Positions 3,481 through 63,464 of a stretch of 64,000 nucleotides of DNA are shown piece after piece. The stretch covers positions 517,720 through 581,719 of the forward strand of contig PUQB01000042.1 of the NCBI GenBank assembly GCA_003024785.1. Direction: 5' to 3'. Under the pieces are notes generated by a model that was given only the letters and a program-made list of their open reading frames with translations, was not told the DNA's origin and made no database searches. Position numbers and translations under genes: made by a program. Positions within the stretch are counted from its first letter, which is position 1. The number at the start of each line of letters is the position of its first letter. Source of the stretch: Selaginella tamariscina (Eukaryota > Streptophyta > Lycopodiopsida > Selaginellales > Selaginellaceae).

Positions 3481-3575
3481 GGGCATAGCATATGTTACAT
3501 AAAGTATATTCATATGAGATTGTCTCCCCAATTTCAATAACATGTACTGTTTACAATGTTATATAAAGAGTTGTA

Positions 3576-26225: not shown

Positions 26226-28320
26226 CTATAGAAGCTCTCCATCCTCTACCATGCCTAACTTCTCATGTATGTTCCTCATCAACACGTAAGCAGCTCCTAC
26301 ACTTCCCTCGTCCTCGTTAAGAGCCACCAATGCATTGAATGCAACCCCGGCAGTTACCACGTTTCCCCACTTCCTACATGCACCTAATAAGCTGGTCCAT
26401 ATAACACTGTTCGCTACAAATGGCATTCCTATGACAAGTAATAATGCCTCCTCTAATCTGTTAGCTCTTCCCAACATATCAACCATACATGCATAATGCT
26501 CCACAGTCGGTTTAATACCATACGTAGACATGGTATCAAAACACCTTCGACCCTCATTCACCATACCCGCGTGGCTACACGCTGTGAGTATCAACAGCAT
26601 TGTAACACTGTCCATTTGTAAACCACTCTCCTGCATTCTCTTCACCACCCTGAACACCTGTGATGTGTCTCCTAGCGAGGTGTATCCTCCCATCAAGGCA
26701 GTCCAAGATAGAGTGTCATGAGAATGCATCCTGCTGAATACATCCTCAGCCGCAGCCATGTTCACATTTCCCATAAAAGTCCAAGACAGAGTTTAGAATG
26801 AACTCGTCTTGCTCCCACCCGAGCTCACAAACTCGATTGTGAATCTCCTGTCCAGTTTCTAACGCTCCCATACATGCACAGGCCTTGAGTGCAGCAGCAA
26901 ATGTAGCAGGGGCTGGTGCACAGTTCATGCTGTTGAACACTTGAAGTGCCACTGAACTCTCTCCGTTCTCCACGTATCCAAGGATTAATACATTCCAGCA
27001 TACAGCATCCCTTTGCGGCATTCCATCGAAAACATCACGGGCACGTACCATGTCCCACATTTTCTGTACATGTCTACCAAGGTGCTTCCCACAACTATGT
27101 CTTTGTCAAAACCGAGCTCCGTGGCCTGTTTATGAACTGACAACCCCTTCTCTAGCTTATTTAACCCTCCACACGCCTTCAGTGCAGCAACACATGTAAC
27201 ACAGTTCGGGGCACAGTCCATATTGTCGAACACATCCAGTGCCACTAAGCACTGTCCATTCTCCACGTATCCAAGGATTAAGACGTTCCACGACACGACG
27301 TCCCTGTGGGTCATTCTATCGAAAACATCACGAGCCAGTAACATATTACCGCATTTTCTGTACATGTCAACCAAGGTGCTTCCTACGAGTATGTCTTTCT
27401 CGAAGCCAAACTCTCTGGCCCGCCTATGAACCGACACCCATTCTGCAGACAGATATCCTTCTCCGGTTTATTATCGGTTGCCGAGGCTGCAATGGCGTTG
27501 AGTACAGCAACAAATGTAACACCATTTGGTGCACAGTCCATTCTTTGGAACATCTCCAAGGCCAGTGAGTTCTGTCCGTTCTCTACATATCCGAGGATTA
27601 AAACGTTCCAGGATACAACATCCCGGTGTACCATTCCATCAAAAGCAGCACGAGCCTGCAGTATGTCCCCGCATTTTCCATATGTGCCCACCAGCGTGTT
27701 TGCCACAACGATATCTTTCTCAAAGCCAAGTTCTCTGGCCTGTCTATGAATAGAAACCGCTCTCTGCAGACAGACCAACTCTGCACATGCCTTGAGTGCA
27801 GCAACAAACGTAACACGGGTTGGTGCACAGTCGATGCTGTTGAACACATTCAAAGCGACTGAACTCTGTCCGTTCTCCACATATCCAAGGATTAACACAT
27901 TCCAGCATACAATATCCCGCTGCAACAAACTATCGAAAACATCACGGGCTCGTCTCATATCCCCACATTTTCTGTACATATCTACCAAGGTGCTTCCCAC
28001 AGCTATGTCTTGGTCGAACCCAAGCTCTGTGGCCTGCCTATGAACCAACATTCCCTTCTGCAGACAGATATTCTTACTACATGCCTTGAGTACAGCGATA
28101 AACGTAACACGGTTTGGTGTACAATCCATGCGTTCGAACACGTCCAAAGCCACGAAACTCTGCCCGTTCTCCACGTATCCAAGGATTAGAGCTGTCCAAG
28201 AAACCACATTACGCTCGATCATGTTCCCAAACACGTCCTGGGCCTCCCGCATGCTGCCGCATTTGCTATACATTGATATCAGTGTACTGGCAACGTATAT
28301 GTTCCTGTGACAAGCCTGAG
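26226..28320 (-). CDS. PLS-class pentatricopeptide repeat (PPR) protein, frame-broken
   Basis: PPR proteins bind organellar RNA for editing, splicing or stability. About six repeats of about 100 residues (P-L-S triplets) are visible, each with near-identical blocks: VVSWNVLILGYVENGQ, FERMDCTPNRVTFIAVLKAC, HRQARELGFEKDIVVANTLV, MYRKCGDMRRARDVFD. The C-terminus has the E-type region (KPTVEHYACMVDMLGRANRL, NSVIWTSLLGACRKWGNVVT, GAAYVLMRNIHEKLGMVEDG) and a TAG stop at 26226; no DYW domain follows. The first readable repeat starts near 28320 (YVASTLISMYSKCGSM); the N-terminus and targeting peptide are not found. Three one-base frame changes occur (near 27420, 27060 and 26765). Either indel errors or a recent pseudogene. 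Confidence 0.8.
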
Positions 28321-28329
28321 TCTATTGCA

Positions 28330-31689: not shown

Positions 31690-32245
31690 ATCAAATAGAA
31701 AATAGCACACTTTTTTTTCTTAACCAGTTTATAGAAAGCACGACAATATTACAAACTGAAGACCTCCTTGAGTGCTTTTAGCACGTAACTTAGGTCTACC
31801 CCAAGTCCCATCCGTAGTATACGCACTATGTATAATCCCTACCGGTAAAAACCCTCTTCACTAAGTTAAACTATCTCTAGCAAAAGCTCCAAGTCAACCA
31901 TATTCTTGTCATTAAAGCTTAAAAAATTAGCTTAGCCAAATCGAGAGGCCTTGACTCCTTGTTTCGCACACATTTTATGAGAGTATTTCTTAGCCACAAT
32001 CCTACCATAGTGAAACAAGAAATTCTCCTACTATGGATGGTATCTAGTTCCATAAATATAACCTTTGGTAAATAAGTAGTTTTGAACTAGAGCTTCATTA
32101 TAGTGAACCATGGGATGATTCTCCTTACCCAACGTGTAAGCAAGGTACAAAAGATTTCACACGACCACCTGATCTTGCCATGGACAGTGCATGTCGAAGT
32201 ACACAAGCAAGTTACCTTTATATTTACATTGAGAAGGCTACTCTT
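31690..32245. other. Intergenic DNA left of the candidate transposon
   Basis: No gene or repeat recognised. Confidence 0.55.
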
Positions 32246-32270
32246 ATGCAAGTTGTAACTAAAATGGGCA
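32246..32270 (+). repeat. Left terminal inverted repeat
   Basis: Begins ATGCA and contains GTTGTAACTAAAATGGGCA. It pairs with 46764-46788 read on the minus strand, with two mismatches. It lies 476 bp beyond the stop of the DDE-like gene. Confidence 0.65.
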
Positions 32271-32745
32271 GCTATAGTCCCATTTCCTAATAATTAGCAA
32301 TTTTAGCTATTTAATTAGCATTTTCTAATATTAAAGGAATATTCTTTAGAATATATTTGAAAATAGAATATTCTTTAGAATATTCTATTTTGTATTCTAC
32401 CCTTTAATAAATTATAGCATTCATTGAACAAAAATTAATAACATTATAAAAGTAGAAGGTATTAAATTATATAATATATTGCCTAATATAACAATTAAGG
32501 AAGAGCATAAGAGGTACATTATATAAATATTGATGTTGTTATTAAAATATTAATATTTAAATATAACATTATTAATTAAAAATTTGTAGTAGTAATAATA
32601 TATATATAAAATCCTATAATAATATAGTCAATCTTCCATATCATTTTTTAAATTTATATAGTTAAGTAAACAATTTGGTACTATTATTAAAGAGTTTATA
32701 ATAATTATGAATATTAAAATAATATTTTATAATTTTGTAATTGCT

Positions 32746-35700
32746 TTAAGCTTCAGAAAACATACATTCCCTTGCAGTTTTGTTAATCGTGACTTTATCA
32801 ACGCTTCTTGACATCCACCCATATCGAATGGATTTAACATTTATAAAACATGCTGGGTCTTTTTGATTGGGAGACCATGTTTTCTCTAGGCATCCATTAT
32901 ATCTTTCGCTCTCCTTCTCGTGTCGCCTTTTTTGTGGTTTGAACCATGCAACCTTAACAATACTATTTTTTGTGATTACTTCAGGTGTGTCGATAATTTG
33001 ACCCATCCAAATAGGCTGATTATATGACGCATCTGGAGTAATGAGAACCATCATTAGTTTTTGAAGATCCTGGCAGCAATCAAAGTATGCTTTAGGTTTT
33101 TGGTTCCTTTGTCCAACAAAGTGTGGGGTTTGCACTTCCACATCACTACTGGCTTCTATGTCGTCTGTGCTCAGTGATGTCATTTCAATCTCCTCTCGCC
33201 ACCTTGTTTTAGGCCAAAAAGGGTGTTGCAATTCTGTACTTGTGACAGTAGGCCCTTCCAACTCTCGAACAACAGTCTCCCAATAGTCAACCACATGCTT
33301 ATATAGTTCTGAGTAACCAGTTGCCTTATCAGAATTCTTTGGCATCGATTTTTGAACCCATGCCACATATTTTTTGATGCCATCAATAATAACCTCTTGT
33401 TCCTTGAGCTGGGCACTCAATGGAATAGGGTCTGGTTGTCCTTCTGGGAGAAGTGGCTTTCCATTCTCTCCACTTTTGAAGAGCATTAACCCCTCTTTCG
33501 GTAACCACTCCTGCTCTGATGGCCGTAACTTGTACTGCATAATAGGTATACCATCTCGTATGGAGAAAAAGAATTGTAGCGGCACAAGGTGACCAACTAA
33601 AGAATCACTCCCCTCTTTTATATACTCCTTGAGAAATTTTTTGAAGTCTGGCACCTCAGTCACAAGCAAAGCACAACTTTTTTTGGAGATGCAATTTTCA
33701 AAAAGATTCATCATATGCGGTAAGGTAAGTGCACTTGTCCTTTTTGTAGAGTTGGAGACCTTGCTGAAGAACGCATCAATATCTTCATGAGTGTGACCAA
33801 CCATAAGAAAACTGAGCGTGATTGTTTCAAACACACCTTTGGCAACAAGCATTGACAAGTATGCTAGCACATATCTAGAAAATAAAAGTAAGTATGAGCT
33901 TGAGAAACCCTTAAGTAAAATGATTTACCTATTTTTGTTCTCGCCTGCACAATTATCCATCTGTAAAAGCAAATGACGAGGAAGCTTATTTGATGTTGAG
34001 GACACATGTACACTATTTGAGCTAGATCCCTCCACTGAACCTGAACTCTCAACAGGGCCATCTGTTTTTTGTGCAGGTTGCTGACAATGCCTCTCATATT
34101 CCCAAGTAGCCTCAAGTGCAGACGTGTTCATGAGAGCATTATGTAAAGGTTGAAGGTGTTGTTTCTTCACTTTGAGATCACCGATAGGACTTGTCTGTGA
34201 GTGGGCTTCAAGGTTTCTGAAACACATGGCCAACGACCCAATAGTGAAATTGGAGTCGCTAGACCAATGTGGAAGTGAAAAGTGTCCATATGATTCACAA
34301 CCGTGTCCATGTGTTAGCACACCTGTCAATGAAATCGGAAGTTTCATGACATTTCCAAGGCACTTTGGTGTTGCAACGAGCTTTGGAATGCTGGTCTTTG
34401 AATGATCCATCTTGTCATGGATCAAGCACAGGTACTCTGATGGGCGTGACACAGAAAGCATGCGGTGTGCATAGTACTGAGACCGGCAAGTTTGTTGCGC
34501 AATCATGTGGGCCTCCATCTTCTTTTGAATGGCAGTGATCTCCACCAAGGTTTTTGCACAAGCCTCTGCAGCCTTCAATGATGTACAAGTGTCACACTTG
34601 GAAAAGCTAGAGTGTTTTGCAATCTCCACATCCTTAAAATGAGTATTCCATATGTTGTTGAAGGTACCAGTGCAGATTGCTTGCAGCCCCATCAAGCTGA
34701 GGCACTTGTTCACATGTTCACACAGCTTCAATTGAGTGTAGATCGAAGGCAAAACCTTGAGATTTTCCCTGACCCCTGCATTTGTGGTTCGGCATTTGTG
34801 AGGCATCCTGTCTGCATTTGCTTCCACAAAAGCCTTGAGTATCTCTATGGCTGCCATAATGTGAGAGCGGGTTTTGACCAAGCCAGTGTTCCCATGTACT
34901 GAGGTTCGCGCTCCATCTAACCACTCATCCCTCCGACGTAGAACGTGGTCTTTGGGATCCCATATATACTGTACCAAGCTTTGAAGCAGATGGCCACCTT
35001 ATTAAATACCATGGATGTACTCTGATAACCTGTGTCCGAAGCCATTCCATCAATACACCCAGTTAGTGCAGCATATACAAACTCATGCCTTTGCTTTTGG
35101 GTGAGCGTACGAAAGACATGTCTACATTGGGTAATTTCATTCCGGTCTGCCATCTGACAACACTTCTTCTTGCAGCAGTCAATCGTGGAAATGCTCGTAA
35201 CACTTTCGGAAGATGTAGGATCCATCTTCATCCTCTTGCTGAAACATGTAGGGGAAGATCTGCAACCCATGAATCGCCTTTTTCTTAATAGGACCAATGC
35301 AAGGAACCTCTTCAAATATGAGTTGTTCTTCCGGGTTGTTATTATTGAAATCCAACCCAGAATATGTTGAACCATCTTGCCGTCTTAATTCAGATGTTCG
35401 CCACCTCACGAGGGATCCAGGATGCAAAGTGCCATTAGGTGAAACCTCTGTCACAACTACACCCACGAAGTCGGACCCTAGTTTCTCTTCTGACACTGCT
35501 TCCATTGGATTTATAGCTGTGATGATGCCTCTCCCAACCTCAATCTCATGAAGAAAGAGAATCACCTCATCCATCACAGCAGGCAAGCCATCATCTGGAA
35601 AACTCGTGCTACTGTTTGTTTGTGACTCTGTATATTCTGTGTCAGCCTTGACTTCATCCAAATTCCACAATACAGGAGAACCCTCCTCAAATTCCATTCC

Positions 35701-35874
35701 AGGAACCTCAACATGCTTGAAAATGGTGTTCACCCATACGTACACACAAGATCCTTGGGCAATATTGTGACATGATGCATTATCATCTCGAACTTCCACA
35801 GTTCCAGTGCCAACTATCTCGTTGTTCCGAAGAAGACATACTTTATCTCCAGTATTATACATATTGTCCTGCAC
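32746..35874 (-). CDS. DDE/RNase H-like transposase-type protein (DUF7869 class)
   Basis: Reading from 35874: an N-terminal part (VCLLRNNEIVGTGTVEVRDD...) resembling the DUF8039-like module found in plant transposon proteins; two PxV/WRTSEL-type small beta segments; a Cys motif DCCKKKCCQ followed by QCRHVFRTLTQKQRHEFVYA; then a large domain with CDTCTSLKAAE, IHDKMDHSK, LPLQ-like LLLQMDNCAGENKN and FLMVGHTHEDIDAFFSKVS, the DUF7869 signature. The conserved D (HDKMD), D (QMDN) and E/D (HTHEDID) fit an RNase H/DDE fold. A 54-bp intron (33875-33928, GTAAAT...TTCTAG) splits N-R|Y in NKNRYVLAYL. The C-terminus ends ARECMFSEA. One-base frame changes lie near 35200 and 34930. The DUF8039 resemblance is by pattern only. 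Likely the element's transposase. Confidence 0.75.
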
Positions 35875-36014
35875 ATAAATAATTGTGTTATTTATGATAT
35901 CTGTTTATGCAATATTTGTAAGAAATCATAACTGCAGTTGCTTAATAATATGCATGTGCAATAATACATAATTATATATAAAATAATATCTCATGCTTTA
36001 TTAATATAACTGAT

Positions 36015-36830
36015 GGGCGGGATTAATCCCGCCGCAGACTCTACCCCTTCAGAGTGAGTCGGCGGGATTAATCCCGCGCCGACTCTACCCCATTAATCCC
36101 GCCGCCGACTCTACCCCGTCGGAGAGGCGGCGGGATTAATCCCGCCGCCTACCCAGTCGGAGAGAGCGGCGGGATTAATCCCGCCGCGCTCCCTCCGACG
36201 AGGAAGTACCGGCGGGATTAATCCCGCCGGGCTCCCTCCGACGAGGAAGTAGCGGCGGGATTAATCCCGCGCGGGTCCCTCCGACTAGGAAGTACCGGCG
36301 GGATTAATCCGCCGCCGGATCTTCCTCGTCTGTGAGAGTCGGCGGGATTAATCCCGCCGCAAATTCCTCCGACGAGGAAGAGGGGGCGGGATTAATCCCG
36401 CCCACAACACTGACGACGGAGAATAGGCGGCGGGATTAATCCCGCCCACAACTCTGACGACGGGGAATAAGCGGCGGATTAATCCCGCCCACAACTCTCT
36501 CCGAAACTATGATTTCAAAGAGATTGGGATGAATTCTGCCCACAAATATTTAAAACAGGGAAGTAGTGGCGAGATTAATCCCGCCACCCCTTCTCTGCCT
36601 CCTAAAATGGTTGGCGAGATTAATCCCGCCGACAACTCTTTCTAATAAATTCAAGTAAATCATTATCAGTTGAGAGAGTTATCGCGGGATTAATCTCGCC
36701 GCTCTTTTTAAGAGGCGGAGAAGCATTGCCCGAACTAATTCTGCCATAGCTATGAAAGAGATGGTGGCGGGATTAATCCCGCCACCTCTTCAAAGAGGCG
36801 AAAAAAAATGGCCGGATTAATCCCGCCGCC
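36015..36830. repeat. Left array of the palindrome GGCGGGATTAATCCCGCC
   Basis: About 18 copies (counting imperfect ones) of an 18-bp perfect palindrome at intervals of about 40-60 bp. Spacers share GACTCTACCCC, CTCCCTCCGACGAGGAAGTA and ACAACTCTGACGACGG. GC content is far above the flanks. Copies farthest from the DDE gene (36,540-36,830) are more degraded, often GGCGAGATTAATCCCGCC. It starts about 140 bp upstream of the DDE gene's first codon. Confidence 0.95.
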
Positions 36831-36839
36831 CCGGCTAAC

Positions 36840-38020
36840 CGAGAATATTAAGTTAAAAGTATATTTAAACGGGATAAATCCCTAACAGAATATATTGTAA
36901 TCCTAATGCATTCCTAAATCCCTAAATTCTAAAATTTAAAGAGAATGTAAGAGAGTGAATCTTTATAAATATATCTAAATTTGTTTATAATACTTACTTG
37001 TAAACAGCACTGAAGGCGCCGTGCTTTCCTATAAACAATAGCGCACCCAATTTAATGTCGCTCCTGAGCTGATCACTAAGAAGAAAAAAGAAAATCTGAA
37101 GAGTGAAAATGAAGAAACCCTTGCCGGAGAAAGAACCAGATCTGAATTTGAGTGGGAAATTAAATGTATTTTCAAATTTACATGTCAGACTGATAATACT
37201 TATGTCAGAAATTCAAAATTTTTGAAAATAAAAAAAGAAAATTTAAGATGAGTTGAAACAAATAACCGACAGTCTGACATATATACTCTCCAATTCCAAT
37301 GAGTGTTTTAAAATTGCATTTAATGTCATTCAAGTGCTTCAAGCTGTTTAATATTACGAAATTTTTGTAATTATTCTACATTCTTAATATTCAAGTATAT
37401 ATTATTAAGTTTATATTATATATATATATACACTAATACAATAAATAAATTGATATATTATTATGTATCATTTAAAATATATTCATAGTCTGTTTATTAT
37501 TATTATTTTCTTAATTACTCGAGTAATTAATTTACATTTCCTACTATTAATGGGATATTCTTTATTATTTTCTTAATATTCAAAGAATATTCCAATATTA
37601 AACTGATTATCATAATTAAATTAGTCTTATTCTTAATTATCTCAGTAATTATTCTACATTTGTATATATTAATGGGATTTTCTCAATTAATTTGTTATTA
37701 TTTCAAGAATATTCTAGTGTTAAACCTTATTATCAATATTAAATTAATATATATTATTAAAACTATATATGGCTATATATTAGATAAAATCATATATTAT
37801 TATGTATAATTTAAAATATGTTCATAGTGTGTATATTAATATTATTTTCTTAATTATTCGATGTTTGTTTTGCACATATTATATAAACACAATCATAAAT
37901 TTATATATACATGTGCACACGCATTAGAAGCACTTACAGAGACACATATGCACACACATGCACATTGCCCTAAACCAAACTTGAGAAATTATATGTTGCT
38001 TCTTTATTGAAAAACATCAT
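36840..38020. other. AT-rich part of the central spacer
   Basis: No gene. 37000-37270 is moderately complex sequence without an open frame. 37500-37760 has two related stretches (TTAATGGGATATTCTTTATT / TTAATGGGATTTTCTCAATT, each followed by AAGAATATTC) similar in style to the element's sub-terminal DNA. Confidence 0.6.
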
Positions 38021-38024
38021 GTTC

Positions 38025-38910
38025 AACGCATGTATGATCTATATGTACTCAGTGTGTGTGTATGTAACACATTGAATTTACACATGTAATATATATGTAT
38101 GTCTGTGTGTATACACGTGTGTATGTATATATGTGTACTAATATAATATATGCAATGTGTACGATTTTCATTTGTTAACACTCTATCTCTTCTCTCATAC
38201 ATACACAGTGTCACCATGCATAATCCCTTCTCTCATACATACACACCATGCATGATCATGATCCATAATATGTAGCCTGTCTCTTCTCTCATACATACAC
38301 ACCATGCATGATCCATCCTAACCCTAAACCCTAAACCCTACATTGAATTTACACATGTAATATATATGTATGTATGTGTGTATACAGTGTATAGTATATG
38401 TGTGTACTAATATATCCAATGTGTATGAATTTAATTTGTTAACACTCTCACTCTTCTCTCATACATACACACCATGCATGATCCATGTAAATATGTACTG
38501 TCTCTCTTCTCTCAAACATACACACCATGCATGATCCATAATATGTATTGTCACTCTTCTCTCATACATACACATCATACATGATCCTGTACTCTGTCTC
38601 TCTAATATTAATATATACTAATATGTATGTATGTCTATGTGTATAATACTATGTGTGTATATATGTATCGCTGCATGTGAAACTTTAACACTCTCAATAT
38701 GTACTGTCTCTCTTCTCTCAAACATACACACCATGCATGATCTATAATATGTATTGTCACTTCTTCTCTCATACATACACACCATACATGATCCTGTACT
38801 CTGTCTCTCTAATATTAATATATACTAATATGTATGTATGTCTATGTGTATAATACTATGTGTGTATATGTATCGCTGCATATGAAACTTTAACACTCTC
38901 ATGGACACAC
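38025..38910. repeat. Nested tandem duplications with CATGCATGATCC motif and telomere-like repeats
   Basis: CTTCTCTCATACATACACACCATGC plus CATGATCC recurs about eight times. Longer blocks are duplicated: 38068-38170 with 38341-38455, and 38578-38700 with 38777-38905. At 38317-38340 there are three telomere-type units (CCCTAAACCCTAAACCCTA). No coding potential. Confidence 0.85.
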
Positions 38911-39139
38911 ACGTGTTAAGCCCTTGCATGATATTTATTCTTGGGGTGTATATGATACACCCACGCACATGCACACGCTGATAATATAATGAAAGAATAT
39001 TCATTTAGGGCGAATCTATAATTTATTCTTTTTAGGGTTTAAGTATATTCTTAGAAGGAATATTTGATTAGGGTTAATATATATTCTATTCCTTTTAGGG
39101 TTTAAGTATATTCCTAGGGTTTGTAAGGCGGCGGCGTGG

Positions 39140-39305
39140 AAAACTCCTTCTCTCTCTCACACAGGTGAGATCTCTCTCTCTCTCTCACACGCACACTCCT
39201 CTGAGTTTATTTATTTATTTTTATTCACATATATATTTATATGTGTGTGTATCTTAATAATATAATTTAGATCTCTATCTCTCGCACACACACGCACACT
39301 CGTAT

Positions 39306-39367
<62 letters not shown>

Positions 39368-39826
39368 CTGTATATTATATATATATATTATATATATATA
39401 TATAATATAATATAATATATTATCTCCTTCTCTCTCTCTTCTCTATAGATCTCTATCTCTTACACACACACGCACACTCGTATACATACACACACACACA
39501 CAATATATATATATATTATATATATATCTCCTTCTCTCTCTCTCTTCTCTATAGATCTCTATCTGTCGCACACACGCACACTCGTATACATATACACACA
39601 CAGATATATATTATATAATATATATATATATATCTCCTTCTCTCTCTCTCTTCTCTATAGATCTCTATCTCTCGCACACACATGCACACTCGTATACATA
39701 TACACACACAGATATATATATATATATATATATATATCTCCTTCTCTCTCTCTCTTCTCTATAGATCTCTATCTCTCGCACACCACACACTCGTATACAT
39801 ATACACACACAGATATATATATACAT

Positions 39827-39862
<36 letters not shown>

Positions 39863-39880
39863 TCTATTTATTTATCTATA
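39140..39880. repeat. Higher-order array of CT, CA and TA tracts, unit about 105-120 bp
   Basis: Five or six copies of a unit in the order CTCCTTCTCTCTCTCTC, TTCTCTATAGATCTCTATCT, CGCACACACACGCACACTCG, TATACATA, (CA)n, (TA)n. Simpler CA/TG/TA tracts continue to 40,284. Length is unreliable in assemblies. Confidence 0.85.
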
Positions 39881-40036
39881 TATATGTGTGTGTGTGTGTA
39901 TCTGTATAATTTTATTGATTTGTTAATTGTATCTCTCGCACACACATGCACACTCCTGTATATATATATATGTGTGTGTGTGTTTTGTTTATCTGTATGA
40001 TTTTATTTGTTTCACACACGCATACACACGATATAC

Positions 40037-40074
<38 letters not shown>

Positions 40075-40284
40075 CCTATGTATACATACATATATTATGT
40101 GTACCAGTATCTGTATAATTTTATTTATTTATCTATCTCTCGCACACACACGCGTATATACATATATATGTGTGTGTGTGTGTATCTGTATAATTTTATC
40201 TGATTTGACTATCTTTGGCACACACACGCACTCTCCTACACACACATATACATATATATATCTGTGTGTGTGTGTGTGTGTGTA

Positions 40285-41640
40285 GCGGCAGGATTAATCC
40301 CGCCGCTATATGGTGAGACGTGTGTAGTGGCGGGATTAATCCCGCCGCTATATAATTAGCCACTCGGCGGCGGGATTAATCCCGCCGCGTACGCATGCCC
40401 TGCGCGGAATCGGGCGGGATTTATCCCGCCGCCATTGGCCTGCCTGAAGGGCCTAGGCGGCGGGATTAATCCCGCCGGATTCCGCACAGGGCATTGGCAT
40501 CCGGCGGGATTAATCCCACCGCGTACGCATGCCATGCGCGGAATTGGGCGGGATTTATCTTGCCGCCATTAGCCTGCCTGAAGGGCCTAGGCAGCAGGAT
40601 TAATCTCGCCGGATTCCGCACAGGGCATTGGCGTCCGGGGATTAATCCCGCCGACTAAGGCCCGAGTGAAGGGCCTGGGCGGCGGGATTAATCCCGCCAC
40701 GTACGCATGCCCTGCGCGGAATCGGGCGGGGTTTATCCCGCCGCCATTGGCATGCCTGAAGGGCCTAGGCGGCGGGATTAATCCCGCCGGATTCCGCACA
40801 GGGCATTGGCGTCCGGCGGGATTAATCTCGCCGACTAAGGCCCGAGTGAAGGGCCTGGGCGGCGGGATTAATCCCGCCGCGTACGCATGTCCTGCGCGGA
40901 ATCGGGCGGGATTTATCCCTCTGCCATTGGCCTGCCTGAAGGGCCTAGGCGGCGGGATTAATCCCGCCAGATTCTGCACAGAGCATTGACATCCGGCGGG
41001 ATTAATCCGCCGCGTACGCATGCCCTGCGCGGAATCGGGCGGGATTTATCCCGCCACCTAGGGCCCAAGTGAAGGGCCAGGGCGGCGGGATTAATCCCAC
41101 TGCCATGCGCAGAATCGGGCAGGATTAATCCCGCGCCAAAGGCCTGCCTAAAGGGCCTAAGTGGCAGGATTAATCCCGCCCGATTTCGAGCAGGGAATTG
41201 GCGTCCGGCGGGATTAATCCTGCCACATAGGGACCGAGTGAAGGCCCTGGGCAGCGGGATTAATCCCGCCGAGCCTTCAATGCCTGTTGGAGGAATGAAT
41301 CCCGCCACCCTTCCTTTTTTTCTCCATTGGTGAGTCGGACCAATCCCAAACGTTTCTGTCTGAGACGTAGAAGGTTTACAACATACCAATGGAGAGAACG
41401 GGGAAGGGTGGGGAAATTCATTTAACCATCCCTTACATGGTGGGCGAGATTAATCCCGCCTCCTTTCTGGAGTCACTGAAGGGGTGTGCCAAATAAACCC
41501 TTCCCAGTTCTCTCTGAGACCGAGAAGCGTGGCAAGATTAATTCCGCACTCCCATTTAAGGCCTCCAGAAAGGTGGCGAGATTAATCCCGCCCACTCTTT
41601 CAGGAGGCATTGAAGGGGTGGCGAGATTAATCCCGCCGCA
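40285..41640. repeat. Right array of GGCGGGATTAATCCCGCC with a higher-order unit
   Basis: About 28 copies (counting imperfect ones), including GGCGGGATTTATCCCGCC variants. From 40,370 to 41,050 copies fall into a higher-order unit of about 180-190 bp with spacers CGTACGCATGCCCTGCGCGG, CATTGGCCTGCCTGAAGGGC, GGATTCCGCACAGGGCATTG and ACTAAGGCCCGAGTGAAGGG. Copies nearest the plus-strand gene (41,440-41,640) have decayed to GGCGAGATTAATCCCGCC. Because the repeat is palindromic, long open frames (GGINPA, AGLIPPP) run through it on both strands; they are not treated as genes. Confidence 0.95.
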
Positions 41641-41940
41641 CCTTCCATGTAAATATATATGTGTATTAGTATATATAAGTTACATATTTTATTTTATTTA
41701 CTTTTATCATCTTATCAGAATATTTCGAGTAAAAGCTAGGAAACTATGTAAAACTGTCCAGAGCTCACATTTGTGGTGGTTCTAAAACGAAATGTTATCT
41801 TTCCTTTGAACTAGCACAAAGGTGAGCTTTGGACAGTTAATTCCGTCTACTTCTCTCTGTGTATTATTTTGTATATTCGGGTTTATACAAGTGTGTGTGC
41901 GTTTTTATATGATTTGTATTCATAGTGTATTATTTTGCAG

Positions 41941-44900
41941 AAGGACGATTTAATTAAACAAGGAGATCGAGTCATTAGTACGGAATCGTCGTCAAATTCT
42001 GGGTAAGAATTAAAATAAAATCTTATACTCGGATATGTGCTTGAACTAATCATTTTTGTATTCAGATGTGAAATTGAGGTGACATTAAAGACGAGAGCAG
42101 GAGAAGAGATGGGCAGGGGATTCTGGAATCAACTTGGCCATATTTCAAACTAAACGGGAAGCGCATTGGAACAACCATAGTTGCTGTCAAACTAACCTCT
42201 GTCACATCGCATGGACAAGCAAAACAATGGAAAGTGGGTGTGCTAGTCAAGCATCCGAAAGCATGCTGTGAACCCATATTGAACGATGCTCGACACATAT
42301 GCCTTGTTCCATCCAATGTCACGTTCTCGGATCCGGAGGTCGCCAGTTACAACATTAATTTCGGGTGGTTTTGTCGACTTGTGGATAATGACGTTCACGT
42401 GTTCACTAATGATGTTGACCGTGGAGTTCTTCTTCAACTCAATGAAAGCCCATCTATGGAGGGGATCCAACTGGATGTCTACTTCAAAGATCTTCAGACT
42501 CATCGAGTAGGTGTATTCTCAGGAGATATTGCTTCACATACAGAAAATCCACAAGTGGAGCAATCGTCCCTCTTCACATTGAAGAAGAAACAGCGACATC
42601 ATAAAGGAGATTGAGAGGGTGGCTTGGTCTCAGGTTCTTTACAGATCACGTTCAATTTGCTTAGCAAATTTCGGGAGCTGGAAGAGTGTGCCGAGAACAT
42701 TAAACATCATCAATCGGGGATCACACATGTTGATTCGGATCCTAGAAGAAAATCATTAGTCGTTTTGTCAGCTGCACCTGTGGCGTCCCATGCTGCAATA
42801 AGCCACAAGGAAATGATGTTGGATGATAGGATTTACCAGTGTAGGGTTAAGTATTGCAGCGTCAACCCAAACTTCAATTACAGGCCCTGAATCAGGAACG
42901 TGTAGCTGAGCTCATGGAGAAGATGAAGGACGACAATTCTTACACCGTTCCACATAATGCTGTTTTGTGTGCATACTACGAGAGACACAAAGGCGCTGAC
43001 AAAGTGTGGATCACAACATCGGAACAAATGAGGAAGGTTCAGACAGAGAATAAAAAATCAGTTAAGTACTACATCATTAGTGGCTAGCACAATAACGACA
43101 ACCCAACGACTTCTGGACGAACACAACAAAGGAATGATGGCAACAAAACTTTCCGAGCATACCCGTGAGAAGCTGACAAAAAGATCGGCATTTTTAGCGA
43201 AGCCGAATCTCACAATCGAGCAGTACCATAAGTTATCGGCGGAATGGGACGCTGCAGACACCAACCACTACAACAGCAAAATATGAAAGAAGTTCAAACA
43301 CACGCGAGCCGTGTGGGAATCTCTTCAGCGACCCAAAGAGCTACTCCAGGGAATACACAATCTGCAGACTACCGGGTAAGCAAATTGTTTGGGCAAGATT
43401 TATCTCGCCGGTATATTAATTTGTTTTTTCTCAGAGAGTTGAAGAAATTGGAGCAGTTGATTTTGCCATGTGGGCGGGAAGGAAACATCCTTTTTGATGA
43501 TGTTGATTTCTTGTCCCGAGGATATGATCTTTGCGAAATGGTTGGGGATTATGGAATCCTTTGCAAAAGGAACATTGAAGAAGAAGCAGACAAGTGAAGT
43601 GGAGCCCTCAGAGAAGTCTGCAAAGAAACCCAGTAAGACGCCGAAGGCTAAGTCTATTCAATCTATAAAGGATGTAGACAACGATTTCAAGCTTACATGG
43701 TTAAAGCCTTTAAATGGAACAACGATGGAGGAGATGGAAGTCTTGGCTGATTTGGTGATTGATGGCAAATTACATATTAACAACAGCAGCCCCACCTCTC
43801 CTTTTCATCTCAAGGCAATGGAGTTGAAGACGGTCAGGCACTTCAAGGAGTGGTTGGGAATACACTGCCACAAACTGGGTTGGATTTCAGCTTCAACATA
43901 TGAAGAGGTCAACAAATATTTGCATGTGACAAATGATGATATGCTTGTCGAATGGGTGAATCAATCGGAAGATCTGGGCAAGAATCTATTGCACGCCAAC
44001 GCCAAAAAGGAGAACATTGCGATGACGCCTTCTCTTATGGCAGTCCTTCAGCAGCGGAGAACCGAGTTGAACCTTATAAAGGAGGATGCTACGAATCACG
44101 ACAAGCCTACAGATGTTTGTTGTTGGATTCGGAGACTTTATGGGGTACCTGCTGTGTAGGAAACCGTTTCAATTGTTTGTGATGGATCGGCGGGTTCAAA
44201 AAATCCTTCGACAGACAGGACACTAGAGGATTGGTGGAGAAACTTAGCCGTGCAAGCATGTACAAGAAGGTATTTATTATTGAATTCATACTTGCACTCT
44301 TGACTGATATCTACGTTTTCAGGTATTTATTTCTTGATTCTTGCTCATGTCACCGATACCTTTGCCTTCTCCTTTGCCAAGAGGAATAAACATCGTTGGA
44401 CAGGATTTTATATGAATGATGCTGATCCGAAGTGCATTGATTCGGTTGTTCACTTGGTTGTTAGGAATGCGCCAAACAGTTTCAAACTTCCAAATGACTG
44501 GCCAGGCATCTGTTTGCACTCCAACGGCCCTGAACCTCCATCCGATACACCGATAGGAGAGTGACGTATTCGGCAATGTACGTTATCCAAACATCAAAGT
44601 CAAGCGGCACGGAGCATCGTCAACTTGATCAGGGGTCCTCACAGTGATGCGTGGGTTTTTGACTACTGCACTAGGGGGTCCGTCTTGAAGGAGTGTTACC
44701 TTCGGCATACATGTGTATTTGCCGTTGAAAAGGATAAGACCATGGTTGAGGACCTGAACAAGTGGATAGATAGGTTCTCAACTGAGTACCCCAACGAATC
44801 CATAAAGGAGTATTTGAGAAAGTTCCCTCCAGATAAGTGCGATAGCTCTGAAGAATCTGGTTCAATGTCGGAGTCTGAGGACGAACTTCAATCAGATATT

Positions 44901-45086
44901 AGACCGGAAGTTATCTCGAGGAGTACAGAACATTCGCACACTCCATTACCCATGGAAACATCAATAGAAGATGCAGAAGATCTTGAACCATCTCACAAGC
45001 GGCTTAGACCTTCTTCGCCTCACTCAGAAGGTAATAGCGAAGAAGAATTGTTAATGAATTTTAGAGTGACGAATAGTTGTAAATGA
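41941..45086 (+). CDS. ParB-N-like plus amino-methyltransferase-like protein, cargo of the candidate transposon
   Basis: First exon 41941-42000 (KDDLIKQGDRVIST), GT-AG intron, then 42071 onward. Region 1 (42130-42610): IGTTIVAVKLTSVTSHGQAK, PSNVTFSDPEV, unrecognised. Region 2 (42890-43310): LNQERVAELMEKMKDD, KVWITTSEQ, VKYYIISGQHN-like, RLLDEHNKG; this order resembles a ParB-N/Srx fold. Region 3 (43590-44160): helical, KTVRHFKEWLGIHCHKLGWI. Region 4 (44160-45086): TVSIVCDGSAGSKNP, RYLFL (after an intron at about 44271-44322), HRWTGFYMN, then HGASS, LIRGPHSDAWVFDYCTRGSV and CVFAVEKD, matching the order of permuted N4/N6 amino-methyltransferases (motif IV, X, I) but with DPPY and FxGxG eroded. 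The tail is acidic. Several one-base frame changes occur. Boundaries between exons are approximate. Family assignment is by pattern, not by search. Confidence 0.45.
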
Positions 45087-45333
45087 GTGTAACATAAGGC
45101 ATTTTTGTATATTTCGTTTATATTTGTACAGAAAATAAATTCTCAAGGATTAATGAAGCTTTTAGTTCAAACATGGGTCACACATTAACAAGGTAAATAA
45201 TATACCTTGATAATTTTAAGGTCAGCTAATTATCATTTTGCAGATGTAATGAAACAATTGAGAACATGGATTTTCAGCATTGGCATGAGGTAAGAGAGGG
45301 GTTTGGCGACAATTTCTTGTGCCACATGTCAGA

Positions 45334-46254
45334 ATGACAGAGTTCATGCAGGAAATGGATAATAATGCAGCTCAAAACATCGTTACCATGGGGGCCACTT
45401 CAGTTTTTTCATCATCATTTTTATTGGCTTCAGTTCCGAAATCAATTTCTTCAGCGCATGCAATATCTGAATCTTGTAAGGATGATGTACAATTAAATGA
45501 TGAAGGGATAGGCAACGAGATAGTGGCAACGGATAAATGTGAAAGGGAGCAAACAAGTGATTTGCAAAGTATTCAAGAGGCAACGCTATCTCATGTTACT
45601 CATGGCCATATTGTGTTGTTGGATGTCAATGGTGTTCTGCTTCATCGACAAAGGCCCGAGGATAGAAAAAAGAAATCAAACAAGGAGATTTCATTCCTTG
45701 TCATGGTAAATTTCGATATGATATTATTTTTCGTCCAGGGTTGGATCGTCTCTTTCAAAAGCTTAAGGAGATGGGTGCGCTTGTGGGGATTTGGTCATGC
45801 ATGCAGATTCATAACTTAACACCGCTGTTGAATTTGCTTAAGAAACATTGTAGTGTTGCAGAAGATGATTCGTAAAGATTGGATTTTTGACCAGCGAATG
45901 TGTTATAAACCTCTCGAATTTCACAATATAAGAAAGGAAAGCAAGCCATACTTCTTCAAGAATGAAAGAATAATTGGGACTCATGGGGAGATCAGTCGCT
46001 TAAGGATAATGAAGAATGCACATATCTTAGTAGTAGACGACTCTCCTCAGAAGGCTATGCTCAACCAAAACATTGCTTGTATTCATCCAATCACTTTCGA
46101 TCCATATTCTGATACCGATATCATGGATGAGCTAGTGAACTACTTGGATACGTGCCTCAGAAAGAAGAATCTCGAAAATTTTTGTGAGCAGTATCCACCG
46201 TATCATACATTTCCTGAAGCTTTTCTTTCTCGTGATTTGAATTTTATAAAATGA
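45334..46254 (+). CDS. FCP1/NIF-like HAD-family protein, cargo of the candidate transposon
   Basis: HAD phosphatases of the FCP1/SCP group act on phosphoserine, classically in the RNA polymerase II tail. From ATG 45334 (MTEFMQEMDNNAAQN) an N-terminal low-complexity part leads to the first HAD motif HIVLLDVNGVLLH near 45605, then FRPGLDRLFQKLKEMGALVG and IWSCMQIHNLTPLL, CYKPLEFHNIRKES, and the last motif AHILVVDDSPQKAMLNQNIA, which is typical of FCP1/NIF. In motif I the second aspartate (DxD) is N (DVN), so catalysis may be lost. C-terminus: ENFCEQYPPYHTFPEAF, ending LNFIK. Frame changes occur near 45710 and 45870. A short 5' exon may lie at about 45243-45290. It lies 510 bp inside the right inverted repeat. 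Confidence 0.7.
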
Positions 46255-46763
46255 AGGATAGCAACCGGGCGCTTTATAATATTATTCTTAAGGAACGTCA
46301 TTTTTAGATGAGCCTTTATGCAGACCTTCTTATTACATCTTATGTATTAACAAGGATGGCAACTCCCAATTGCATTCGTGAGAGTGTTAGTGGTGGCAAC
46401 AACATCAAGATATTGACCAAAATGATTTGATTAATCCGGAGAGTGATGATTTAGACAAAATGAGGAGATTTCTCTTATGGTTAGGAAGAAAGTATTTATA
46501 AAAATTAACATGTTGATAAGAAAATGATTTCATTTGTAATTATGTTTGATAGTATTTCTTCATTATTGTAAACTATTTTTAGAATAATATGAATATTCTA
46601 AGATATTTTAGGAATATTCCTTACTAAGTAAGGTTATTGAAGGATTAATTAATTAATTAATTAATATTTAAGGCTTAATTACATATTAATTAAATGATTA
46701 ATTAATAATTAAAACTTAAGTATTAATTAGTAATTTATTTTATATTCCCATTTTCACGTATCA

Positions 46764-46788
46764 TGCCCACTTTAGTTACAACGTGCAT
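46764..46788 (-). repeat. Right terminal inverted repeat
   Basis: On the minus strand it begins ATGCA and contains GTTGTAACTAAAGTGGGCA; 23 of 25 bases match 32246-32270. It lies 66 bp left of the Copia fossil's 5' LTR. Confidence 0.65.
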
Positions 46789-46853
46789 TTTTCTTCTTGT
46801 GTGATATACCCCATATCCAAAAGATGGACGTGGAGATGAACATGGAATCAATA

Positions 46854-46977: not shown

Positions 46978-49900
46978 TGGTATTAGAGCATCAGGTTTGA
47001 GCTACGGTGACTTCCTCTTGCAGGCATATCTGTAACCCGTATCCGGAATCCTACATCCTGTATCATGTATCCGGAATCATGTGTGTGTGTTAATTCTATA
47101 ATTAAAAAAGAGTCTACTTTTTAACTCAAGATGGCATGCTTTTAGTAGAATAGAGGCATGCCCAACCAATAGGTGCTGCAAATATTGGCTTGGCATCATG
47201 AGCAGATTTGCCATTGGGGAACTATATCTAGCCATATTGACCTCTCTAAATCTTCGGTAGAGAAATGGAAAGCATTAAAGAGTGCCCTAGGCAAGGAGAG
47301 AATGTGTCAATAGGTTCCTTGAAGGCCAAACTGTTCAGGCTTGAGCAGGCTCCAAGAGAGACAACCGTGGAGTACATCAGTCGTTGGCATGCAATAAGCG
47401 AGCAACGTCCAAGGCACCCCAGTACCCAAAGGCTAGAGCTTGCACTAAGACCTTAAGGTGCCTTGCACTCATGTAGCATTGCTCGTGGTGGATTTAAACT
47501 TGACTTAACCTTCACAAATCAAAATGGTCTACCAAGAAGAGAAAGGTGGTTAGAAGCTGCTTTACTTAGTTTCAACTAAGGTAAATGAAAAACAAGAAGC
47601 AGATAATTGAGTAGAAGAAATTCATTTGAGACAGGGTTGGCTCCAAACTCACCACTAGGTGTAGATCCAAGTTTTGTAAAGCACAAGGGCTATTGCAACA
47701 AGTGTCATAGGCATGGGCAATATGGTCAAGAGGGCTCGAAGGCAAAAAAAAGTTGTTGATGCAACTACATCCTCAACCACTTACCTCTCGATGGTAAAGG
47801 GATCTTCATATGATGCAGGACCAACATCTATAATCTTTGGCTCAACTCAATAATGGGACAACACATTACCAACTAAAAGACATGTATTCGACAGTGCAAT
47901 GCACCAAGATAAAGTCATTATTAGCAATGGTGCACATTGACTATTCAAGGCCAACAACATATGAGAATTCAGCTTCCTTAGGAGCAATAAATCAAGTATC
48001 TCGCATGAAGTATGTTTTAGAAGCTATAGAAACTCTTTAATCTACGATATTTATTATGATCAAGGCGATTTTTTCACCATATCGCAGGAGTTTTCTATTG
48101 CATATCAAATGTGGGAGAAGTACAGATGCAACTTGGCAGGAAATTTCTTTAGGCTCAAATGTATTATCCAACTTGCCATTGATAGCATGGGTACAAAGTC
48201 ATTTGGCCTTGGTTCTTGATTAGCAATTGGTAATAGTTATATACCATGGTAAGCAAGGACAATAGCAAATATTAGCACATGGCATAGGCACTATGGCCAC
48301 TCATCAACAAATAAAGAGATGGTGGACGATATTAAAATACTTCCCTTTCAATTGGGGTTTTGCAAGCCTTGTGTCCTTGACAAGCAACATAAGTTTCCAT
48401 TTATTTTCTGAAGTGATCACTCGAGCTTCATGGCCTTTTGAGTTGGTTCATTATGATATTTGTGCACTTATGTAGACTCAAACCTCCAAGAAGAAGCACT
48501 ATTTTTATTTTTTTTGTGAACGACTATTCATGTCAACTTCTAGTTCATTGGTTTGAGGGTCTAGCATAGTTTAAGAAGTGGTACATAGCAGCATATGTAG
48601 AACCTAAGAAGATTCCATAGTGATGGCAAAGAAGAATTTTTATCAATGCATTTGCAGCTTATTATAGTAGTCATGGAATATAGAAGCAAGTTATTATGCC
48701 TCATACGTAAGAGTAGAACAATGTAGCGGAGAGAATGAACAGAACATTAGTGGAGTGTGTTTTGCAACATGCTCCAAGATTCATACGTCCCTAACACATA
48801 TTGAGGGACACATTGGTAAACAACTGCTTATTTCCGCAACTAGCTCCAATAGTTTATGGAGCAAGGCAAAAACCAAAGGAGTTGTTGACTAGTCGTAGGC
48901 CACATGTCTTTAGCTTAAAGTTTTGACTACATGGCATATGCTCTTGTACTTGAGGATGGGAGGCGGAAGTGGGACCCATTGTCCTCCTTGGTTACAGTGA
49001 GGATAGCAAGGCCTACGAGCTCCTTAACCTCAATCACACAAGTTGCTTGTTGCTAGACATTATTTTTAATGAGTCCCAAACTTATGATAACCAAACAAGG
49101 CAACAGAGTAGGACAATTATGACAACAGGAGGGATGGTGCCTCAAAGCTAGAGTTTTCAACAACATAATAGTTAGGGGAGCATTGGCTAGTAAAGGAGTA
49201 GGGATGAATCGAGTGCTAGGGGGAGTAGGATCGTAGATTGGCAATTCCAACGACCATGCCTCTTCTAGCTATAATCCTTTAGTGAGCAATAGTGTCCAGT
49301 AGCAAGAGCAAGAGTAAGGTCAAGGTCTTAGGAGGAAAGCTCCATGTTCTTGCAGCCCCAACTCCAGCACCTTGTTAGTTTTTAGGGATTCTCATCCCTA
49401 TGGAGGGAGGCCAATAGTACTATGAGCAGATAGCTACGTAAACAACTCTATTAGCATCTCATCGGGAGTCTCGAGAGCACTCACAATCAACACTAGGCAC
49501 ACAAAAGCCTTTCTACTTTGTAGCAGATGTCATTCTAGACATTGCGTGCCATAGACTTCTTAACTAGTGATGCAAAGCCTAAATACAACTATGTGGAAGG
49601 CAACAACAAACAATGAAATGAATGACATTATCAAGAACCTGAGGTCCACCAAACATGGAAGTAGTGGACATAAGTGGATGTTCAAGATCAAGCCAATGCA
49701 TGTTCTGATCGCCAACCTGAGAGATAAAGCTTACTTGTTGCACATGGATTTCTCATGTGAAAGAAGTGGACTTTACAAAAACTTATTTTGTCAATGGTTA
49801 AGCTTGCATCTATACATCTCCTAATGGCATTAGATGTGCAATTTAATTTGGAGGTGAAGCAGATAACGTTGCTTCACCTTAAGGAGGAGATGTACATCAC

Positions 49901-60060: not shown

Positions 60061-60198
60061 GTAATTGTTGCTCCATCCATGCAAACTAGACCACCAACAG
60101 GATTGTAAAACATTCAAACAAGGTATAAATTAGTTGGAATAGCCTTGAATAGGTTTAACCTAAAACTTAGTTAACCTAAAACAACTGGCAATACCTAT
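60027..60198. repeat. 33-bp perfect inverted repeat around a 106-bp loop
   Basis: 60027-60059 (ATAGGTATTGCCAGTTG...AACTAAG) is the exact reverse complement of 60166-60198. It marks the junction between the Gag fossil and the Gypsy fossil. Confidence 0.9.
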
Positions 60199-63100
60199 AT
60201 TAAAGCATGTCCTGCAGCTGTGTTGTCATGGCAGTGTTGGACATCTCGCAACCTCAGTTCTCTGTCCGGAACATATATTTGGATGTGGTGGTACAGCAAC
60301 CCATTATGAAGATGGAAAGCAGCATAATCTCGTAGTTGTGACCCTGAAGACAATGGTTGAACTCGTCGAACATGTGCAAGGACATCACGAGCAAACTTGT
60401 CTTGAGGGAGATTTTCTCGAATTAGATCCAAAAACGAAGTGTCAACTGGAGCAGAAGAACGGGAAAGCACGTTTACCAACAACTGGTCGGAGCTCAGAAT
60501 GACTTGTTCTTGTTTATCAAATCGGATTTCACTGGTACTAGAGCTAGGTAACTGCGACAAGATAAGGCATTTGCTTTGCCATTTAGACGACCGGGACGAT
60601 GAATAATCACGTATCGGAACCGGGACAAAGACTGTGCCCATGCGCCTGACGTTGATTGAGAACTTGTTGTTGCCTAGTACTGGAGGTTCTTGTGATCACA
60701 ATACACCTTAACCACATGCGGGGAACCTTCAAGGAATCTGTGCCACTCCTCAAAGGCATCGACGATCGCCATAGCTCCTTGTTGTAGACATCGTAGTTGA
60801 TCTCAGGTGCAGTGAACTTGCGGGAATGGAAAGCAATGGGATGGAGAAGATGATCTGGACCTTCCTGGGACAACACTCCACCAATGGCAAAGTCAGAGGC
60901 ATCAGCTTCCACGAAATATGGCTTCGCAGGGTCAGGATGGATAAGAACAGGTGCCGAGGTGAACGCCTTCTTTAGGAACTCGAACGCCTCCTCAGCCTCA
61001 GAGGACCAGACAAATGGAACATCCTTGCCAGTCAACTTCGTCAATGGCAATGCAATCTTGGAGAAATCCCGAACGAAACGTCGATAGAAGTTCGCAAACC
61101 CGAAAACATAACATCACGAACATTTGATCTCTCTCCCACTCCAATACAGTCCGGACTTTTGCAGGATCCATGTGAACACCTTCAGCTGAAATGATGTACC
61201 CCAGGAACTCGACAGACTGCTGACTGAAAGAGCACTTCTCCAACTTGGCAAACAAGTGGTGCTTCCGGAGCCTCTCCAAGACTAACCGTACATGTTGTTT
61301 GTGTTCTTCTCGAGTCTTGGAAAATATCAGGATGTCGTCTAGGTACATGATGACAAACAAATCCAAGAAGTCCCAGAAAATATCGTTAGCCATGTGCTGG
61401 AACACAGCAGGTGCATTTGTCAGGCCGAACGGCATTACTACGTACTCGAAATGTCCGTAGCGTGTATGGAAAGTTGTTTTCCACTCGTCCCCTTCTCGAA
61501 TTCGGATGAGATTGTACGCTCCTCTTAAATCGATCTTTGTGAAGTACCGGGCACCAGAAAGACGTTCGAGCATGTCGGAGACGAGCGGGAGAGGATACTT
61601 GTTTGGAATGGTGACCTTATTCAGATCTCGGTAGTCCACCACGAGCCGGAGACTTCCATCCTTCTTGAAACAAAGAATACTGGAGCACCAGCCGGTGATC
61701 GCGAATGACGGATAAATCCGGTGACAAGATTCTCCTCAATGTATTTCCTCAATGTCTCCAACTCTGTTGGTGAGAGACCGTAAATGGGACCGGAGGACGG
61801 CTGCTTACCCTCAACGAGATCGATAGGACAGTCGTACTCACGGTGCGGTGGCAAGGCAGAAGCTTTCTTTTTGTCGAAGACGTCTGCGAAATGGCATACT
61901 GCTTTGGTAAGGCAGGAGGAACAGAAACATCCTTAGCAGAGCAGGGATAGACTTTGATCGCGAACACGGATGCTGGGTCATGTCGGCTATCTTTCTTGAA
62001 CTGCTTCAAGGTGATATGCGAGACTCGAAGTGGAGGAGGAACTGGAACAGGATCGGAATCAAAGAGTGTGGCTGGAGTTGAAACAGCTGGGAAACGTTCA
62101 TGAAACGTTCTCTCCAACCAGGATCCACCAACTCGATCCACGGCAAACCAAGGATAATCGTAGAGTCTGGAATAGAAACAACACTGAAGGAGATGTTGCA
62201 CACAGCACCGCAAGCAACGACCTCAACGAACTCCGTGTCATTTATTACCGCTCCAGATTTGATATCTCGTCCATCAACGACCCGTACAGAACCAGGAGTC
62301 TTCAAAGGATGTAGACGGATCCCGTGCTTGACAGCAAAATTCTTGTCGATGAAATTTGCGTTCGCTCCGCTATCCACCAAAGCTTTACCAGAGAACTCCA
62401 CCTCTGGTGTCTTCAGCTGCACCGGAACATGGAACGGCTTGCACACCTTCGTGGATGGAATGGATCCAAGATGAGGAAGGGAAGATGTTATGAGTGAAGA
62501 GCCTTGAGGAACATGAGTTGTTCCACGGCAATAGCCGGACGGCTCCTATTCGGGCTGGATCTTCTTCGTTTCGACAGCACAGCAAGGGCCACTTCACGAG
62601 CTTGTTTTGGACGTCGATGACAATTCTCCAACTTGTGGTACGGGTCCCCACAGTACAAACAAAGCTTGTACTGAATCCGCTTCTGACGTTCGGTTGGCAA
62701 AAGCTTGCCTCGTGATCGCCCTAATTCCATCGGGGATGGTTCTACTGAGGAAGATGATGAATCAGCAGATGAGGGAACAGGGACTGCAGAAATGGAAGAA
62801 GACGGCACCAAGAAGAAAGAAGGATGCCGACGTTCTTGTTTCCGCTCGATCAACCGGTTGTCACAACGAATTGCCAACTCGATCATGCTGGTGAGGGTTT
62901 CGGAACCGCAAAATTCAGCAACATGTCTTTGACCTCGTCCTGCAACCCCGACCGGAAAACCTCCTTGAGAGCACGATCTCCCCATGTGACATCACAAGCA
63001 AGAAGTTGAAACTTCGATGCGTACTCTACTACCGACATACCCCCTTGGTGAAGCTGACGGAGTTTGGTGATGGCAGCACTCTCACGATCCACGTCACTGA

Positions 63101-63464
63101 ACATCGCCGTGAACCGTTCCACAAACTCGTCAAAATTCCCAAGGATCGGATCATTGTTCTCCAGCAAGGCTGAGAACCATGAAAGAGCAGAACCAGAAAG
63201 AAGCGACCCGATCAATCCAACCTTAATGGGTTCTTGTAGCGCCTCGGCTGCATCACGATCCGCAGACGAACTTGATTGAGAAAACCTCGGAACTTCGATC
63301 GGGTACCATCGAACTTTTCGGGCATGCTGATCTTCGGCTCTGGAGAATTCACACGCTGTCGGAGCTGATCATTCTCCAGGTGTAGTTGTTCGAGCTGCTG
63401 CTGGAGGGCAGCAACTTGCTCATGAAGAGCATGCTCGGACATGATGAGTCGAAGAAGAAAAATC

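Follow-up and report, generated by a model that had tools for sequence, protein, structure and literature searches.

We analysed a 64-kb window of the Selaginella tamariscina genome (the whole stretch of DNA under study, C749:517720-581719, from an assembly of 300,702,823 bases [300.7 Mb] in 1,391 contigs) and found a 14,543-bp unit at positions 32246-46788. This unit is very probably a member of a high-copy family of ~14-kb DNA transposons with 25-bp terminal inverted repeats (TIRs) of the form ATGCA...TGCAT, a 4-bp target-site duplication (TSD) and a DUF7869 protein as transposase. The sequence evidence indicates that the element is a mobile DNA transposon, because its copies have common ends, left and right ends are paired, and TSDs and empty sites are present; the family is present in high copy number and has fixed ends, empty sites, a nested insertion and, for some of its copies, a 4-bp TSD.

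The unit is bounded by a left TIR, ATGCAAGTTGTAACTAAAATGGGCA (32246-32270, plus strand), which is the left-type end of the genome-wide family, and by a right TIR (46764-46788, minus strand) that is identical to it at 23 of 25 positions; the two differing positions hold C and G, which mark a right end. Outside these two arms, no site in the whole 64-kb window matches the 25-bp repeat at 18 or more of its positions. The outer genes diverge, with the DUF7869 gene on the minus strand, two gene regions on the plus strand and two palindrome arrays in between; the centre of the element (36828-40286) holds AT-rich repeats and microsatellites. The preliminary description of this DNA had drawn a mirror-image unit with these inverted repeats at these bases and with outward-pointing genes around two palindrome arrays, all of which the comparison within the window and the strands of the open reading frames (ORFs) confirm. 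The unit's condition is less tidy: the left flank TCTT (32242-32245) agrees with the right flank TTTT (46789-46792) at 3 of 4 bases, an imperfect TSD, and the window's genes have frame breaks. A scan of the window for other inverted pairs of at least 23/25 identity, 3-30 kb apart, found them inside the arrays and, unrelated, at 26241/31538, 26371/31408 and 34437/51425. Consequently, the genome evidence, and not the window alone, decides the boundaries.

The TIR core has 2,544 exact matches in the assembly (1,309 forward and 1,235 reverse), compared to 0 and 0 for a reversed control. The count is a lower bound: two DUF7869 loci (L088 and L089, at C1:910800-912900 and C1:929400-931500) have a variant TIR, TGCATGTTG, that escapes the exact pattern, and they are perhaps a second subfamily. 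If all 2,544 ends belonged to full copies, half that number at 14.5 kb each would make up ~6% of the genome, a rough figure given the many partial copies and the omission of variant ends from the count. With the left 200 bp as the query, all 40 scored matches (the best 40 of 646 candidates) extended from base 1 to base 200 at 98-100% identity; a 270-bp query from the left array was covered in full, at 99-100%, by all 40 scored matches (the best 40 of 2,057). A DNA search with the right end gave 0 candidates under a tool that passes over simple and very common words; copies bearing this end do exist. The genome was sampled at first in 20 stretches of 10 kb and then in 30 loci totalling 206.5 kb, overlaps included; among these 30 loci, pieces of the element occur in L011, L013, L017, L022 and L029, with a short match in L008. 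A relic of the left end, 74% identical, lies at L028:5865-6276, which suggests, on its sequence, an older wave of the family.

Extension of these sampled pieces yielded three more complete copies (C1:3119-16906, C1:796442-811239 and C1000:6247-18012), whose ends fall on the same bases as those of the window copy. The 2-kb flanks on each side of the four complete copies show no similarity between copies, and the two flanks of the C1:3119 copy have one repeat in common with each other. Over the outer 3.75 and 5.1 kb, K2P distances between three copies are 0.017-0.041. The C1000 copy (L029 and L036) lacks the counterpart of window positions 41755-45584, the right gene 1 region, while keeping both ends; for much of the left gene it contains no matching DNA, and the frames in that part read as a retrotransposon.

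Pairing of the ends was examined among the first 100 places listed, where 47 ends were of the left type, 48 of the right type and 5 mixed. All 19 convergent neighbours within 20 kb joined a left to a right end. We compared the flanks of 21 end pairs (these 19, two of which are the C1:3119 and C1:796442 copies, together with the window and C1000 copies) and found an exact 4-bp TSD in 9, compared to 6 of 420 mismatched pairs, a 30-fold excess. Two further pairs, those of the window and of C1:796442, match at 3 of 4 bases. No excess appears at other lengths (true versus mismatched pairs: 1/21 versus 38/420 at 2 bp, 2 versus 12 at 3 bp and 1 versus 1 at 5 bp), and no exact duplication of 6 to 10 bp was found in any of the 21 pairs. 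The 4-bp duplication sits outside the ATGCA...TGCAT ends. A reading without any TSD, based on the window, C1:3119 and C1:796442 copies, which have no clear one, was rejected when 17 further pairs revealed the 4 bp; TGCA as the target site was also rejected, as the adjacent outer base is nearly fixed, being A on the left in 20 of 21 flanks and T on the right in all 21.

Empty sites were sought by joining the flanks of the nine TSD pairs so that a single TSD copy remained, and comparing them with the genome stretches read in the analysis. Two of the nine junctions, those of insertions on C26 and C80, are spanned fully by uninterrupted DNA, and that of C84 partly. The C26 empty site occurs in L025 and L030 (83-85% identity). 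The C80 empty site (ends at C80:563981 and C80:578793) occurs at six places in sibling elements (87-99%), including the window's own element, where the joined flanks align along their full 194 bases with 95.4% identity (46447-46638) and the target TTAT stands uninterrupted at 46540-46543 (plus strand). Because this empty site lies inside sibling elements, the C80 copy must have inserted into another copy of the family. Common ends, TSDs and empty sites together uphold the earlier proposal that the unit is mobile as a single block, bounded by these ends; with regard to TSDs, the exact 4 bp is present in the nine pairs and is missing from the window's own.

The left gene (32746-35874, minus strand), the proposed transposase with a DDD active site, matches DUF7869 (PF25273, E 2.9e-25 and 9.8e-13). 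Its ORF pieces span 35874-35179, 35375-34917, 34977-33925 and 33870-32746, and the frame is broken near 35.2 kb and again near 34.95 kb. A 54-bp GT-AG intron (33875-33928, minus strand) was placed by reading between the second and third acidic motifs, where relatives are continuous through NKNRY. All three motifs are on the minus strand and their acidic residues are nearly invariant in relatives: the D-K-M-D of IHDKMD (34405-34416; D88 in 49/49 and D91 in 51/51 rows with a letter), the D of LQMDN (33955-33957; 39/40 rows) and the D-I-D of GHTHEDID (33775-33783; D295 in 32/36 and D297 in 34/36). A predicted model of a DUF7869 relative has an RNase H fold; a second predicted model has a pLDDT of 53. 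An exact left TIR lies within 6 kb of 22 of the 40 DUF7869 matches listed on contigs C1-C91, and in 21 of these 22 the match is 1.27-1.36 kb from that end. Of the remaining 18 matches, 10 were read: 6 have a TIR identical at 24 of 25 bases and 1 has the TIR with one inserted base. Predicted fold, conserved acidic residues and a TIR near most loci checked make the left gene the best transposase candidate, and the RNase H/DDE signature first attributed to it agrees with the model and the conserved residues. A transposase function is thereby suggested for a domain of unknown function, which is not named in the open-access literature searched. Among 54 DUF7869 sequences, no known transposase model was matched in Pfam at E values up to 1, and matches under the cut-off, such as Imm30 and Mut7-C, were taken as chance. 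Elsewhere in the analysis, an NCBIfam proline-tRNA ligase match (18.4 bits, cut-off 558) was likewise put down to chance.

Several observations weigh against a DUF7869-driven transposon. The best Foldseek match of the predicted model is modest (E 0.022), and a family's absence from the structure match list (VIA-align) does not exclude it. Three of the 10 DUF7869 loci read depart from the expected arrangement, 1 having a degenerate-looking TIR (13/25, by eye) and 2 no TIR at the expected place, so that the association with the repeat, which the preliminary description had treated as decisive, is prevalent and not universal. Twelve of the 21 end pairs have no exact 4-bp TSD, including all four completely read copies. 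Lastly, among the first 100 places listed, unpaired ends (no partner within 20 kb) are common, and a further 12 pairs of neighbouring ends no more than 20 kb apart are arranged differently. One of these consists of two facing right ends 223 bp apart (C1:2394855 and C1:2395078, in L037); we regard this and the other odd arrangements as rearranged or partial copies.

Two alternative mechanisms would draw on these same observations. The block could be mobile while DUF7869 is cargo or an accessory, the cutting being done by the orphan protein of the right gene region, which has no known family and could thus be an enzyme, or by another element's protein in trans. This account gains slightly from the modest fold match and from the four completely read copies without an exact TSD. 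We consider it very unlikely, as the C1000 copy keeps both ends though its right gene 1 region is missing, DUF7869 relatives show almost no variation at the acidic residues, and the DUF7869 match lies at an almost constant distance from the left end. Alternatively, the unit could have multiplied by recombination, as a segmental or satellite-driven repeat and without any transposase, a view to which the large palindrome arrays and microsatellites, the pairs without an exact TSD and the odd end arrangements would lend themselves. Exact common ends between unrelated flanks, the excess of 4-bp TSDs over the mismatched control and the empty sites speak so directly against recombination that we give it hardly any credence. 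The data therefore favour a mobile element with DUF7869 as its transposase.

Under the favoured mechanism, the DUF7869 protein would bind the TIRs, cut through a DDD active site on its RNase H fold in the cut-and-paste manner of DDE enzymes, and join the ends to target DNA at positions 4 bp apart; the insertion itself is read from the sequence, and the enzyme's part in it is presumed. The FCP1-like and orphan proteins of the right side would be carried along and may aid expression or transposition. The two palindrome arrays are most likely binding sites of a two-fold symmetric protein that would control the outward-pointing gene regions.

The left array (36016-36827) has 16 units around GGCGGGATTAATCCCGCC, spaced mostly 43-45 bp apart, and the right array (40287-41637) has 28 units. 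The perfect palindrome GCGGGATTAATCCCGC occurs 18 times in the window, 18 of 18 inside the element. The other copies contain 17 left and 20 right units (C1:3119), 14 and 26 (C1:796442) and 5 and 14 (C1000), and the median spacing is 44-45 bp across the four copies. Units were picked on their central 8 bp; the 5 bp flanking each side of that core, unused in picking, are 85-95% conserved and symmetric, with a drop to 53-64% one base further out. The symmetric 18-bp core is thus kept while the spacers drift. Its conservation suggests a bound site of two-fold symmetry, with the reservation that units belonging to a single family cannot count as independent. The half-site, GGCGGGA, looks similar to a site of E2F-type factors. 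Both arrays lie upstream of the genes: ~140 bp separate the left array from the left reading frame, and ~300-440 bp the right array from the first right pieces. The element also offers a testable case of conserved-looking internal palindrome arrays inside a transposon.

Both genes of the right side are broken in the window copy and frame-shifted in the copies read, with break positions that differ between copies, a pattern that fits decay and assembly errors alike. Right gene 1 (41940-45086, plus strand) encodes an orphan protein: using composite queries that include frame breaks, nothing was found above the Pfam cut-off and 0 of 6,369 protein database candidates were related. Its best PHROGs match (0.031), four Protein Data Bank (PDB) matches (E 0.96-2.6) and a PH_BUD3_C match (0.053) were taken as chance. 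One stretch in the C1:3119 and C1:796442 copies, YYIISGQHTITAAQRLL, has what we take to be a ParB-like look, which no search supports. The earlier label of a ParB/methyltransferase-like protein was consequently rejected as an established one, as Pfam, PHROGs, PDB and the protein database give it no support. Right gene 2 (45319-46254, plus strand) resembles FCP1/NIF phosphatases of the HAD type (PF03031), as had been proposed. A composite of two other copies matches PF03031 with E 3.9e-12 (46.6 bits, cut-off 21.8), while the window piece alone stays under the cut-off (E 0.036); a protein search found 0 of 615 candidates related. FCP1-type phosphatases have the catalytic motif DxDx(T/V). The copies of the window, C1:3119 and C1:796442 have DVNGV at this site instead, making phosphatase activity of the product doubtful. 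Our search of the open-access literature found nothing linking FCP1 with transposons in Selaginella, and nothing relevant on ParB in fern genomes.

A bolder proposal would unite these parts. The element could represent a new DUF7869-driven superfamily of giant plant transposons with its own addressing system, in which an element-encoded dimeric protein, possibly the ParB-looking orphan, binds the 18-bp palindrome arrays and controls or spatially organises two divergent transcription units, while the FCP1-like protein acts on host RNA polymerase II. We offer this as speculation and judge it unlikely as a whole.

Around the element, the window contains exons resembling the gene of transcription elongation factor SPT6 (3551-7545, minus strand; by eye) and, by the look of their translations, tandem-looking PPR-like frames (26226-28321, minus strand) with a 294-bp period repeat at 27498-28188. 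Directly to the right of the element is what looks by eye like a decayed Copia-type retrotransposon (47000-49000), and a Gypsy-type retrotransposon look, with reverse transcriptase, RNase H, protease and gag, was noted by eye at 60195-63368 (minus strand).

Among the closest known groups, CACTA/EnSpm and related (CMCT) elements are large TIR transposons of plants whose internal repeats are bound by a protein that the element encodes. The present element is likewise a large plant TIR element with internal repeats, and the N-terminal piece of its left gene matches PF03017 (TNP1/EN/SPM transposase) under the cut-off (E 0.096, 13 bits, cut-off 21). Unlike theirs, its arrays are internal, upstream of genes and not subterminal, and no EnSpm-type transposase is among the Pfam matches of the 54 DUF7869 sequences. 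A 4-bp TSD is a feature of groups such as Chapaev, Sola, Ginger and piggyBac/Kolobok, which agree with the element in this length; they differ in that the DUF7869 sequences match no Pfam transposase model and TTAA is absent from the nine duplicated 4-mers. GingerRoot, whose enzyme is integrase-related, is like the present element a DNA transposon of Selaginella.

The available parts of the published descriptions sharpen the comparison. Kyakuja-Dileera-Zisupton (KDZ) elements are eukaryotic DNA transposons with TIRs, some with accessory genes, as here (PMC12730594, in part); Zisupton has an 8-bp TSD in the same account, whereas the TSD here is 4 bp and an exact 8-bp duplication occurs in 0 of 21 pairs, and no KDZ model is among the Pfam matches (Pfam search only). 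EnSpm is given CAC..GTG ends and a 3-bp TSD there (PMC12730594), compared to ATGCA..TGCAT ends and an exact 3-bp TSD in 2 of 21 pairs here. GingerRoot was characterised from Selaginella lepidophylla, and IS3EU/GingerRoot elements have a 6-bp TSD and ends that are mostly TA..TA (TAYGG), sometimes TG..CA, in the portion of PMC10045372 consulted; the present element has ATGCA ends, DUF7869 and an exact 6-bp TSD in 0 of 21 pairs. Its ends and TSD therefore fit none of Zisupton, EnSpm, IS3EU and GingerRoot.

Its superfamily could nevertheless have a name in Repbase or elsewhere and lack one in Pfam alone, a real if minor possibility. Repbase has 23 superfamilies, 21 of them with DDD/E enzymes (PMC10045372, in part), and the PF03017 match under the cut-off would point this way. 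Against it stand the disagreement in ends and TSD with the groups compared and the lack of known transposase models among the Pfam matches of the DUF7869 sequences. Our search of the open-access literature found no description of the element, and the earlier view that no named superfamily has this set of features is consistent with the described ends and TSDs of the groups compared. The initial interpretation thus holds for the single mobile block, for DUF7869, for the FCP1-like protein and for the misfit to the compared superfamilies, and fails for ParB/methyltransferase. Set apart from Zisupton, EnSpm, IS3EU and GingerRoot by its ends and TSD, the family is a candidate new superfamily within the DDE/D transposons.

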